Of a DNA stretch of 64,000 nucleotides, positions 43,789 through 64,000 are shown piece after piece (the stretch's first letter is position 1; each line of letters begins with the position of its first letter). The position numbers and the translations under genes were made by a program. The stretch covers positions 19,659 to 83,658 of the forward strand of contig CASGDZ010000004.1 of NCBI GenBank assembly GCA_949300385.1, written 5' to 3'. The stretch comes from an uncultured Christensenella sp. (GTDB lineage: Bacteria > Bacillota > Clostridia > Christensenellales > UBA1242). The notes under the pieces were generated by a model that was given only the letters and a program-made list of their open reading frames with translations, was not told the origin of the DNA and searched no databases.

Positions 43789-46700
43789 TTATTCAACTTC
43801 TCCTTCTTTAACTTCAGTCTTATTCTCTTCAGTTTTTTCTTCAACTGATTCAACTTCTTCAGTTTTTTCTTCAGCTGATTCAACTGATTCTTTATCTTTT
43901 ACTTTCTTAGTTGATTTAGACTTATTGCCTTTAGAAGTTGTTTTCTTATTATTTCCACCCTTTCCTGTGAAAGCGAAGAATAATATTACACCAGCTAGAA
44001 CTAATAATGACAATACTATTAATACTACTCCTACAACATTATCATCTTCTTCATCAACTACACTTTCTGATTTAACACTAAATGTTAAAGGTTTAGTAGC
44101 TGGATTACTCGAAGATTCAGTCGTTCCATCATATGTCGAAATAGTTAAAGTGTATTCACCAGTGCCTGTGATAGTATAATTAGTTGTGTTTCCATCAGTT
44201 TCACTGGTCATTGTTCCGTTGCTTGTAGTCAATACTACAGACAAATTATTCCATAAAGTAGTTTGACTTGCTTTGTTATCTTGAAGCGCAGTAGAACCGC
44301 TTAAAATTTCGTATGAATATAATTGTTTATCACCATTAGTTACAGTAATGACAACTGATCTTTCACTAGATGGTGTTTTAACTACTTTTATAGAGTATAT
44401 AATATTTGATCCGTTATATACAATATTTTGTTTCAATTTATCTTCACTAACATTTAATGAAATTGTAGGTTTCTCCAAGTCTCCGACTCTGAATGTCTTA
44501 GTCATTGTAATAGTAGAATCGCTAGTAGTCGCTGTATATGTCACAGTGTATGTTCCATTGATATTGTTACCTGTAGTTGGAACCGTATATGTCCATTTAT
44601 CATTTGCAAGTACTGCGTTCTCTGTCTTTTCTCCTGGAGTTGTGATTATAACAGATATGGTAGCCTTTTCTTCCCCTTGACTTGCAGTTGGATAACCCAA
44701 ATCAATAGTATCTCCTGCTACTGCTGTTGATTGAACAGAAATTTCATCATTCCATTTTAATTGAACGCTTGTCACATTAACATATATCACCTGTGTTAAT
44801 ACATCATCTTCTGCTTCACCAAATTTCAAAGTGAATGTTAAAACGTAATTGCCTGCATCTAAGAATTTATATGAATATTCTTCGTTTCCACTTGGTTCAT
44901 ATTGATTACCATTGTTTGTTACATTAATAGAAATATCATCTTTATAATTTTCTGTTTCGTCACTAGTGCGATCAGATGAATATACTGTTGGATAGAAATC
45001 AATAGTTCCACCTTGTTCAATTGTAACTGTATTGCCAGAAGTTGTGATATCGTCTCCGATAGCCTCTACTTCAAAGATAGGATCTGCATTAACCTTTGCA
45101 TCAAAGTTAGCAAATAATGTTGTAGTATTTCCAGCATCGTCTGTTGCTGTATATACAACGACATATGTTCCTGCTTGACTTGCGACGATAGTACCACCAT
45201 TAGCACTATTGCCTGTTAAAACATAGTTGCTAGGATATTTATAACCTGAAACATTTCCGTTAGAATCAATTACATAGTACATAACTGATACAGAAAGGCT
45301 TTTATCAATATCTTCAAAAGCGATTGAAGGTAAAGTGATAGTATCAAATTGATTTACATTTTCTAAAGTTATAATTGTATTATCACTTGTTGTAAAACTT
45401 CCCAAATCTACAATTGTAGCTGTAGGTGCATCATTATCTTCTATTGTATCTTTTAAAGTTAATGTCTTAGTCACATATGATGTAGTACCATTATCATTAA
45501 TAGCAATTGCGACAATTGTGACATTTGTTTGTCCTTCATAATCCCTTCCTGCCAAAGTAAAGTTAAATTTATTTGCACTATCTTCGCTAACGCTTAATGC
45601 TTTAAATCCTGTGTAATCAACACCCATGCTTGAGATAAATTTTGGATTATCAAGCACATTATATCTTAAACCGATTTCTTCTGTACTTGCACTTTCAACG
45701 CTTGCAATTGCAGAAGAAATTTTTGTTTCAAGATTAGACACATCGCTACCATAGAAGTAGAACATAGCAGTTTTTAATCTTGTATCTTGTTCATCAGTTG
45801 CATTAACGCTAATTTCGAATTCATCTGAGTGCGAAATAGTTTTCTTATTGAAATTATTAAATGAAATTGTTGGTGTACTTTCTGTAATATTTGCTATTGC
45901 GTCTGCTGAAATTTGGATTTTATATGTTAAGTCTTTCTCTTTTTTGGAAATTTTTGAATAAACCATATAGTGAAGAGTATATTTACCAGCATAGTCAGCA
46001 GATTTTTCTTCGTAATCTTCTTCAGTTGATGATACAAATCTAAATACTTGTGCCCCATTTGGTCCGACTAATTCGTCTGCACTAACCATGTTGGCAGACA
46101 CTGTAGGATGTGATTCCAAATATGCATCATCTACATCTACTAATTCTCCACCATCTATAACCTTGTTATCAACATAGAAAATCTTATGGTCACTACTTTC
46201 TAAATATCTAACAACGAGTAAATCTTCACTAGAAGATACCATATCCGTTGCGTAAATTGCTGGTAATATGATTTCATTATATCCATAAGTTGACTTCAAA
46301 TCTACGGCATAATTAGTGTTGACATCAGTTGCACCTTCGTCATAATTATACGCCATATAAACTTCAGGACTAGTAACATACTCTACATTAGTGATTCTAT
46401 ATTTTTTAGTAATAGTGTTATAAGCCGTTTGAATTTCATAAGTTATGATATAATTACCTTTTAAATCATCATAACTTTCAACGCCAAACTCTTCCTTTGT
46501 CATATTGAAAGTTAAATCATTGTTATTAAGAACTTTCTTAATTGTATCGCTACCCTCTTTTTGGATAGTGATAGATAAAATATTATAATCAACATTATTT
46601 TTAGTAGTATTACTATATTTTTCATTTACCGGAACTCTAGGTAATTCAATATCCGTCTGTCCTAATTCAATAGAAGGGAAAGTTGGACTTAGTATTCTTG

Positions 46701-63187: not shown

Positions 63188-63216
63188 TTGACAAATACTT
63201 CGATAGTTGGTAAAAT
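63188..63216 (+). promoter_or_regulatory. promoter of tRNA-Ala
   Basis: TTGACA (63188-63193), 17-nt spacer, TAAAAT (63211-63216). The tRNA begins 18 nt after the -10. Confidence 0.8.
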
Positions 63217-63233: not shown

Positions 63234-63310
63234 GGGGGATTAGCTCAGTTGGCTAGAGCACTTGCCTTGCAAGCAAGGGGTCATCGGTTCGAATCCGATA
63301 TTCTCCACCA
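63234..63310 (+). tRNA. tRNA-Ala (TGC)
   Basis: A complete 77-nt cloverleaf. The acceptor stem is GGGGGAT/ATTCTCC with two G-U pairs, and the D arm is GCTC...GAGC. The anticodon stem is CTTGC/GCAAG around loop CTTGCAA (anticodon TGC). The T arm is ATCGG/CCGAT with loop TTCGAAT. Discriminator A and a genome-encoded CCA complete the end. It has its own promoter and is followed at once by three short repeats that copy its acceptor end. Confidence 0.97.
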
Positions 63311-63397
63311 AGCGGTGAGAATGGACTTATTCGATACCAAGCGGTGAGAATGGACTTATTCTCCACCAAATGGTGAGAATGTACATATTCTTCACCA
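63311..63397 (+). repeat. three 29-nt tandem repeats, each ending in ACCA like the tRNA-Ala 3' end
   Basis: Exact 29-nt units at 63311-63339, 63340-63368 and 63369-63397 abut the tRNA CCA without a gap. Each has a GGTGAGAAT arm, a 6-nt loop and a returning arm that ends in ACCA. Unit 2 ends ATTCTCCACCA, identical to the last 11 nt of the tRNA. Each unit can fold alone as an acceptor-like minihelix, or its 5' arm can pair with the preceding ATTCTCCACC. Unit 1 (ATTCGATACCA) and unit 3 (ATTCTTCACCA) differ in the arm but keep ACCA. Confidence 0.85.
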
Positions 63398-63443
63398 AAC
63401 ATGATTATATGTTAAAATAACGATAATCAGCCCATAAATGTGC

Positions 63444-63465: not shown

Positions 63466-63512
63466 ATATAGAGATGTAGCTCAGCAGGTTAGAGCACCAC
63501 CCTGATAAGGTG
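63466..63512 (+). pseudogene. tRNA-Ile (GAT) fragment, 5' half only
   Basis: 47 nt that match the second copy (63568-63614) with one mismatch. They cover the 5' acceptor strand, the D arm and the full anticodon arm (CCACC CTGATAA GGTGG, anticodon GAT). The variable region and T arm are missing, and the sequence switches directly to AATTTGACC. It cannot make a tRNA. Confidence 0.8.
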
Positions 63513-63567
63513 AATTTGACCACTTTGAGCACGCCAACGAGAGTTGCTAAACTCGTTAAAACAAACC

Positions 63568-63637
63568 ATATAGAGATGTAGCTCAGCCGGTTAGAGCACC
63601 ACCCTGATAAGGTGGGGGTCGGTGGTTCGAGTCCACA
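63568..63637 (+). pseudogene. tRNA-Ile (GAT) copy lacking a matching 3' acceptor strand
   Basis: The second copy has D, anticodon (GAT) and T arms (GGTGG TTCGAGT CCACA). The 5' acceptor strand AGAGATG should be answered by about CATCTCT and CCA. Instead the T arm runs straight into AATTTGA and a terminator hairpin. Homology tools may call it a tRNA, but without the acceptor end it should not be aminoacylated. It could be a relic, an att-site remnant or a tRNA-like non-coding RNA. Confidence 0.7.
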
Positions 63638-63641
63638 AATT

Positions 63642-63669
63642 TGAGAGCAAAAATTGCTCTCATTTTTTT
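63642..63669 (+). terminator. terminator after the tRNA-Ile-like copy
   Basis: Stem TGAGAGCAA/TTGCTCTCA with a 3-nt loop, then seven T. It begins 5 nt after the T arm of the broken tRNA. Confidence 0.85.
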
Positions 63670-63776: not shown

Positions 63777-63937
63777 TTACTGTTGCAAATATACCTAAAA
63801 TTTGTTGCAAATGTTTTTTAAGACAATTTTGAGCAAAAAAAATAGACCGAAATAATCTAATTTTACTTTCGGTCTAAATCTTTATAAAACTATCTAAAAC
63901 TGATATATTTGCAACAATTTGCAACAAATTGCAACAG
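63777..63937. repeat. cluster of TGTTGCAA repeats in inverted orientation
   Basis: Two copies of TGTTGCAAA lie on the plus strand (about 63780-63790 and 63802-63811). Three copies of TTGCAACA/G follow in the opposite orientation (about 63909-63937). The outer copies extend to TTTACTGTTGCAA and TTGCAACAGTAAA, making the cluster an imperfect palindrome around a terminator. This fits protein-binding iterons or recombination arm sites. Confidence 0.5.
63834..63876 (-). terminator. terminator of the gene entering from the right
   Basis: A 10-bp stem (63843-63852 with 63867-63876, 14-nt loop), followed by eight T on the minus strand. It is about 65 nt past the stop codon at 63943. Confidence 0.75.
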
Positions 63938-63942
63938 TAAAT

Positions 63943-64000
63943 TTACATCTCAAAATCTTTTTCTCTTTTTCGTTTTCTTCTTTCTCTTTCTTCCTTTTCT
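63943..64000 (-). CDS. C-terminal tail of an unknown protein (runs in from right)
   Basis: An open frame on the minus strand from the right edge ends with TAA at 63943-63945. The visible tail, about 18 residues, is highly charged (Lys, Arg and Glu) and ends in DFEM. A strong terminator on the same strand downstream supports a real gene end. The protein cannot be identified from this. Its place beside broken tRNA copies and repeats makes an integrase or other element gene possible, but nothing in the tail shows it. Confidence 0.4.
   Translation of the reverse strand, partial: EKEERERRKRKREKDFEM

Follow-up and report, generated by a model that had tools for sequence, protein, structure and literature searches.

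The stretch of DNA analyzed here (the window) comprises 64,000 nucleotides (nt), the final 64 kb of contig G000:C4, so that contig and window end together. Its genome, Onthoplasma G000, has 838,645 bases and is 90% complete. Near the contig end, a gene for alanine transfer RNA (tRNA-Ala) is followed without a gap by three contiguous 29-nt units, each ending in ACCA (Table 1). Each unit is made up of an inverted copy of the tRNA tail (GGTGAGAAT), 6 middle nt, and the tail itself (ATTCTCCACCA or a variant); the units are copies of the 3' end of tRNA-Ala. Tandem Repeats Finder (TRF) reported an array at 63298-63400 with a period of 29, 3.6 copies, and a score of 136. The tail ATTCTCCACCA is present exactly at 63300-63310, in the tRNA, and at 63358-63368, in unit 2, confirming a first-pass annotation that had read unit 2 as repeating the last 11 nt of the tRNA. 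It recurs with 1 mismatch at 63387-63397, in unit 3, and the mismatches to the tRNA tail are 3, 0, and 1 in units 1, 2, and 3. The same annotation had described three exact 29-nt units. This is correct for their length, their adjacency to the tRNA, and their ACCA ends, but the sequences differ, with unit 1 matching unit 2 at 26/29 positions and unit 3 matching it at 24/29.

Matches to ATTCTCCACCA with at most one mismatch number 7 in the window, versus 0.82 expected, and 0/100 shuffles reached 7. Those elsewhere in the window are one exact match (46143-46153) and three with one mismatch; the exact one is isolated, lies distant from every called tRNA, and may be chance. Among 30 tRNAs in the fetched G000 loci, copies of the tail with at most one mismatch within 300 nt downstream numbered two for tRNA-Ala, one for a tRNA-Arg, which we took for chance, and none for the other 28. 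The short loop pattern of the units occurred exactly at the three units and one further place in this genome (C6:24740); with up to 2 mismatches it gave 55 matches, versus 28 for a reversed control.

Onthoplasma belongs to the family Christensenellaceae by NCBI taxonomy and is listed, under the GTDB family UBA1242, among reduced-genome gut bacteria (PMC12306168); the word "tRNA" does not appear in the main text of that source as available to us. We compared 34 genomes of the genus, G000 included, and 27 of them, the base of the tRNA-Ala locus counts below, have a strong tRNA-Ala locus (G004, G009, G010, G016, G023, G025, and G030 lack a strong tRNA-Ala match). Between tRNA-Ala and the first tRNA-Ile, 12/27 loci contain a total of 20 tail copies with at most 2 mismatches in 11. 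Two further matches in G024 (375 and 636 nt) were discounted as chance hits because tRNA-Ile precedes tRNA-Ala at that locus. This order is seen at L227 (G014:C3) and L216 (G024:C91), and in the latter just a 3' piece of tRNA-Ile is left ahead of tRNA-Ala. Unit length across the genus is 28 to 35 nt. G029 displays a clear order of tail, inverted tail, and tail, with an inverted copy that is perfect over 8 nt, and G015, a separate assembly, has three 28-nt units, which rules out an assembly artefact in G000. The units also occur in relatives, and the concern raised with the first-pass annotation, that the repeat might be unique to one assembly, therefore falls away. In an alignment of G000 with G015, 74/87 columns of the units are alike, compared with 65/104 in the leader and 37/67 in the downstream 60 nt (shuffled leaders, 0.54). 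Four loci are compact, with 2 to 3 nt from tRNA-Ala to tRNA-Ile (G007, G013, G021, and G028).

The pattern TCTCCACCA-N{8,38}-TCTCCACCA, which the window array escapes by its wider gap, matched 7/309 genomes of the family; its reversed control matched 1 genome. Four of the seven matches are at the tRNA-Ala locus (G002, G015, G019, and G029), and the other three had no tRNA on the fetched DNA. An order scan of 396 genomes, some of them shared with the family set, gave 8 genomes with two close tails, in each case on fetched DNA that carried no tRNA, and 2 genomes for the reversed control. A genome_contigs search returned 17 stretches, 4 of them from this genus; one of the remaining 13 (L095) has a tRNA on the locus, not adjacent to the match. 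Viral contigs with the repeat numbered 0. Since the out-of-genus loci lack such a tRNA and the reversed controls also match, the two-tail pattern beyond the genus is read as background.

An imperfect inverted copy precedes each 11-nt tail, and each unit is therefore a tail hairpin. Compared with shuffled sequences, units 1 to 3 fold with z scores of -2.4, -3.2, and -3.1. Across the genus, 14/21 tails (the 20 copies and a manually added, degenerate tail from G020) pair with their 5' arm better than 500 shuffles of that arm at p<0.05, and 21/21 lie under the shuffle mean. As the first-pass annotation had proposed, a 5' arm can also pair with the preceding tail: the tRNA tail pairs with unit 1 at a mean probability of 0.31 in a 164-nt fold and 0.88 in a 232-nt fold. 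It had further described acceptor-like hairpins with a free CCA. The hairpins are borne out, but in units 1 and 2 both C's are paired at a probability of ~1, leaving the final A alone free, and in unit 3 the final A is mostly paired too (0.34 unpaired); with the CC paired in all three, a free CCA fails for the window.

These folds bear on the suggestion that the units are CCA-ended minihelices acting as decoys or substrates of alanyl-tRNA synthetase, RNase Z, or the CCA-adding enzyme. The ACCA ends of the window units and the free CCA in folds of G002 unit 2, G012, G017, and G029 are in its favor. These four are the exceptions among 20 genus hairpins, and in the other 16 the CC is partly or wholly buried. 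A G3-U70 pair in the acceptor stem is the identity element for alanyl-tRNA synthetase. Position 70 has an A partner at a probability of at least 0.5 in 13/20 hairpins and a G partner above 0.15 in 0/20. In addition, unit ends across the genus have decayed to CACTA, CATTA, CACCCA, or ACAA with the stem retained. The minihelix proposal is thus not supported, and we consider it very improbable. The middle nt also vary among units (GGACTT, GTACAT, GGATTT, GGAATT, and GCAA).

The DNA downstream of the units contains features that the first-pass annotation, although it recorded the three units, had overlooked: a fourth, decayed unit, a fragment of tRNA-Ile, an antisense arm, and an integrase (Table 1). 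The gap between unit 3 and the fourth hairpin is ~40 nt. A second tRNA-Ile copy lacks ~11 nt of the 3' acceptor strand by comparison with relatives and is therefore probably not functional. The 30 tRNAs called in the fetched G000 loci do not include an intact tRNA-Ile(GAT); that gene is probably unassembled rather than absent. The integrase stretch has 17/18 residues as in a protein fragment of G011 that matches PF00589, so its identity is by likeness. The integrase gene ends ~550 nt downstream of the units, and PF00589 is found in proteins near this tRNA pair in G007, G011, G024, and G027. Between the second tRNA-Ile copy and the integrase lie five short repeats, possible integrase arm sites, and similar repeats precede some tRNA-Ile 3' pieces in relatives. 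Sequences like the terminator-like hairpin follow tRNA-Ile in G022 and tRNA-Ile 3' pieces in G018 and G030. A start similar to TTGACA precedes tRNA-Ala in many relatives (by eye).

Table 1. Features of the tRNA-Ala/tRNA-Ile region at the end of the window
Feature	Coordinates	Strand	Basis or remark
Promoter-like sequence upstream of tRNA-Ala: -35 TTGACA, 17 nt, -10 TAAAAT	63188..63216	+	by eye
tRNA-Ala (TGC), CCA encoded	63234..63310	+	ARAGORN; Rfam RF00005, 70.3 bits
29-nt unit 1, tail decayed to ATTCGATACCA	63311..63339	+	
29-nt unit 2, its last 11 nt identical to those of tRNA-Ala	63340..63368	+	
29-nt unit 3 (ATTCTTCACCA)	63369..63397	+	
Fourth, decayed tail hairpin GTGCTAGAAT-ACG-ATTCTACACAA, ending in ACAA	63440..63463	+	tail with 2 mismatches; p 0.002 versus shuffled arm
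Orphan 5' half of tRNA-Ile (acceptor 5' strand to anticodon stem, anticodon GAT)	63470..63512	+	
Antisense arm complementary to the orphan 5' half	63513..63535	+	duplex -20.8, p 0.011 versus shuffles; p 0.08 versus neutral inverted-copy decay
Small hairpin AACGAG-AGTTGCTAAA-CTCGTT and AAAACAAACC leader	63536..63571	+	common to relatives
Second tRNA-Ile(GAT)-like copy	63572..63643	+	Rfam RF00005, 40.7 bits; not called by ARAGORN
Terminator-like hairpin GAGAGCAAAAATTGCTCTC, then T-run	63643..63669	+	by eye
Five TTGCAACA / TGTTGCAA repeats	63780..63936		TRF at 63907-63936
Tyrosine integrase C-terminal end, last 18 codons (EKEERERRKRKREKDFEM)	63943..63999	-	cut by contig end

A genus-wide search revealed that some tRNA-Ile copies hold only positions ~1-42 and others only ~31-76. 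The 5' and 3' pieces overlap in CCTGATAAGGTG, which is the anticodon loop and stem, a usual crossover site of tyrosine integrases (PMC4383910, PMC8371274). The 3' pieces occur in relatives such as G003, G005, G006, G007, G018, G024, G025, and G030; the window, cut off by the contig end, contains none. Repeats resembling TTGCAACA or TTGCTACA stand directly before four of the 3' pieces, of which two are from G018, one is from G003, and one is from G025. In G006 (C7, C10), the first 5' piece starts with AGAGATG and a 3' piece on the other contig carries CATCTCT (7/7 pairs); an intact copy further along the first contig has AGGATTG/CAATCCT (7/7), and the crosswise combinations give 5/7. These acceptor strands speak against restoration of the original tRNA-Ile. 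G018 likewise has a 5' AGAGATG and a 3' CATCTCT, and G003 a 5' AGGAGTG and a 3' CATTCCT (7/7 with a G-U); in both, the start of an AGGATTG copy is next on the contig. G005 has a 5' piece and a decayed 3' piece, and ~1 kb after the latter lies a gene (78% DNA identity over 813 nt) whose counterpart in G019, an aldo-keto reductase by eye, lies ~150 nt after an intact tRNA-Ile; G005 is the occupied site and G019 the empty one. With a different acceptor stem on the next copy and the matching 3' half elsewhere, these sequences suggest islands that split tRNA-Ile and bring a whole replacement whose acceptor stem differs, and that the two orphan halves are retained. One three-part case (G006) and three partial ones make up this set, which comes from metagenome assemblies with pieces on different contigs.

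Two genomes look like ordinary restoration, judging by their acceptor strands. G007, the only genome in which an intact copy, an integrase remnant, and a 3' piece are all on one contig, has the same acceptor in the intact tRNA-Ile and in the 3' piece, and G027 (L031, G027:C82) has a chimeric tRNA-Ile, AGGAGTG with CAATCCT (6/7 acceptor pairs, a mismatched half), beside a 496-amino-acid integrase. Other copies are altered in different ways. A second AGAGATG copy in G006 (L006 second unit) has an intact T arm and an altered, enlarged anticodon arm (CTGATAAGAAAAAATTTGGGGG), as does a tRNA-Ile-like copy in G011 (L008 first unit). Downstream of tRNA-Ile, L021, L026, and L028 contain extra tRNA-Ile 3' ends accompanied by terminator-like hairpins; one such copy belongs to a different genus of the same family (G035).

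In a class of ~101-nt units, a complementary stretch follows each tRNA-Ile 5' piece, as in the window, and the duplex beats shuffled arms in 7/7 units tested (p at most 0.011). The antisense arms fall into at least three sequence families, and their inverted-copy origin could involve recombination at a near-palindromic core or template switching. Among eight tRNA-Ile units, wobble-preserving changes outnumber breaking ones in most, G022 being the exception. When the duplex was compared with simulated neutral decay of an inverted copy in seven units (G022 left out), p values ranged from 0.03 to 0.37, and from 0.10 to 0.53 under a transition-rich model. Neutral decay therefore gives similar energies and leaves chance open, and we do not claim RNA-level selection on these arms. 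RNAalifold found zero two-sided changes in the tRNA-Ile units, perhaps because the alignment mixes different arms.

Five genomes (G011, G017, G019, G020, and G026; L008, L013, L009, L014, and L015) have branched palindromes of ~150 nt after tRNA-Ala, either by themselves or together with a 28- to 29-nt unit, and each palindrome finishes in the tail hairpin described above. In 7 such elements, two-sided changes affect 10/38 pairs, versus 4.8 in shuffles (0/500 reach 10) and 1 to 4 in slid structures; nine of the ten pairs are in the branched part and one is in the tail hairpin. A query with the ~150-nt element had strong matches at the tRNA-Ala locus only (G011, G019, G020, and G026; the G017 element was missed) and short, weak, AT-rich matches elsewhere in several genomes. 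A query with the tRNA-Ile insert found 11 places in 10/34 genomes, all at this locus. A dispersed mobile element is not supported, the insert and the strong ~150-nt matches being confined to this locus.

The reading we prefer, and give about an even chance, is that the tail-plus-inverted-tail array arose by template switching and slippage in the spacer of an island-prone tRNA-Ala/tRNA-Ile operon. Template switching at the 3' end of tRNA-Ala would turn a tail into tail, inverted tail, and tail again, and slippage would then expand this into a tandem array. Template switching homogenizes inverted-repeat arms (PMC8604942), and work in yeast describes quasi-palindrome mutations in DNA that is highly transcribed (PMC3820800), as far as the accessible parts of these papers go. 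The operon would double as a landing site for tyrosine-integrase islands. Its spacer is presumably transcribed, and each leftover tail would fold on its own antisense arm, so that the units would probably be inert hairpins removed with the spacer during processing. A mild advantage may retain them, since a tail that is already paired is in no position to compete with the tRNA 3' end or to draw CCA-binding enzymes. The arms may thereby insulate tRNA folding. In modeled folds, the tRNA-Ala acceptor forms better with native than with shuffled arms in 7/10 genomes (at most 7.3% of shuffles as good; 150 shuffles each). For tRNA-Ile, five genomes were modeled. Insulation is suggestive in G022 (0.84 versus 0.45, with 7% of shuffles as good); G011 gave 0.13 versus 0.02 shuffled but 0.97 for the tRNA alone; G002 and G008 gave no gain, the equilibrium fold favoring the orphan half; and G000 is uninformative, its tRNA-Ile copy being broken. 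Given these mixed results, insulation is left as a possibility.

Several observations weigh against this account. In four of the seven genomes with a better tRNA-Ala acceptor, the native value is just 0.02 to 0.09, versus 0.74 for the tRNA alone. G015 and G020 have no insulation gain, and the native arms of G000 give 0.0, versus a shuffle mean of 0.064. In the 232-nt fold of G000, the arm of unit 1 pairs with the tail of the tRNA itself, which is the reverse of insulation. All of these folds are equilibrium folds that leave aside tRNA modification and co-transcriptional order. Arm-tail pairing is not significant in 7/21 tails, and the tails share ancestry. A one-nt bulge is kept in several units, though template switching would tend to perfect the arms. 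For the ~150-nt elements, further pair types number 17 versus 16.8 in shuffles, which is no excess, and the structure was derived from the alignment on which it was tested; moreover, related sequences and arm homogenization can inflate or mimic covariation.

If the hairpins were neutral debris without a role, their arm pairing would be a residue of inverted duplication. The tRNA-Ile arms, whose pairing is not clearly above neutral decay, and the failure of insulation in the window itself are consistent with this. The two-sided pair changes in the ~150-nt elements and the retention of stems beside decayed tails weigh against it, and the units are better conserved than their flanks between G000 and G015, though concerted evolution could do the same; we regard neutral debris as somewhat doubtful. 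The stems that persist as tails decay, some with GCAA loops, could instead be processing elements of the tRNA-Ala/tRNA-Ile transcript, for example, sites at which RNase P or RNase III would cut the two tRNAs apart as the spacer lengthens. In many of the genomes with a long spacer, the first few nt past the tRNA-Ala CCA already lead into a hairpin (by eye), as tRNA-Ile does after 2 to 3 nt in the four compact loci, but those four have no hairpins, and a processing function is unlikely.

Attachment-site scars would account for the integrase gene end so close to the units and for the phage integrases (Pfam) near the tRNA pair in relatives. The units would then be tandem tyrosine integrase core sites (11-nt arm, 6-nt middle, 11-nt arm) at the tRNA-Ala 3' end, left by islands coming and going. 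Islands do seem to land in the adjoining tRNA-Ile, and G012 has a longer, 21-nt tail copy resembling a displaced T-loop fragment (by eye). However, at none of the 12 loci is a tail copy separated from tRNA-Ala by an island body, the farthest tail being ~340 nt away, and the middle nt vary, though a crossover segment must match its partner. We consider scars, too, an improbable origin of the units. A broader proposal draws both halves of the operon together. Islands would cut tRNA-Ile in the anticodon loop, supply a full tRNA-Ile read from the host tRNA-Ala promoter, and bring an arm that folds away the orphan 5' half; the tail hairpins of tRNA-Ala would follow the same rule, an RNA-level silencing of tRNA fragments in the operon. 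We advance this split-and-replace strategy as a doubtful, tentative idea.

Splitting and replacing tRNA-Ile appears to be a stronger novelty than the tRNA-Ala units. Restoration of the tRNA by islands is stated as general in the parts of two sources consulted (PMC4383910, PMC8371274), and our search recognized no exception in the literature as far as it was accessible. Islander islands (PMC4383910), as described there, resemble this locus in their tyrosine integrase, tRNA gene, displaced tRNA fragments, and tRNA-Ile anticodon-loop crossover, but the tRNA-Ala units hold no island between them. Islander islands also restore the disrupted gene, whereas tRNA-Ile here is left as 5' and 3' fragments, followed by a copy whose acceptor stem is new. 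In the available text on pTN3-like archaeal integrases, which use the 5' half of a tRNA (PMC8371274), a 5' tRNA fragment is likewise displaced; unlike there, the second copy here follows an antisense arm. Template-switch mutations at quasi-palindromes (PMC8604942, PMC3820800, and PMC7202029, each consulted in part) alter and homogenize inverted repeats in a similar manner, but the product here is a tandem array in which one arm is a tRNA end.

The E. coli tyrT operon, on which our literature search gave nothing usable, carries 178-bp repeats with the 3' end of tRNA-Tyr and an rtT RNA, its own transcript. The likeness to tyrT drawn in the first-pass annotation holds in kind, tandem repeats following a tRNA gene and each carrying a copy of its 3' end (11 nt, exact in unit 2), but not in size, the period being 29 rather than 178. 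Units here are 28 to 35 nt with little beyond tail and inverted tail; unlike those of tyrT, they lie between two tRNA genes and recur across a genus.

In the usual view, tRNA genes tolerate islands since the tRNA is rebuilt. This locus suggests that tRNA-gene fragments build up within a tRNA operon and that a complementary arm often accompanies them. If the arms matter, the locus offers a simple system for how cells stop tRNA pieces from disturbing tRNA folding and processing; otherwise, it preserves a clean natural trace of how template switching acts at a tRNA gene. Island finders built on the assumption of restoration would overlook tRNA-Ile islands of this kind or map them wrongly.

Among ribosomal RNA (rRNA) genes, 23S and 5S rRNA had zero matches in the window at the Rfam gathering threshold, and a 16S rRNA gene lies at 631-2200 on the minus strand (Rfam RF00177, 1530 bits).
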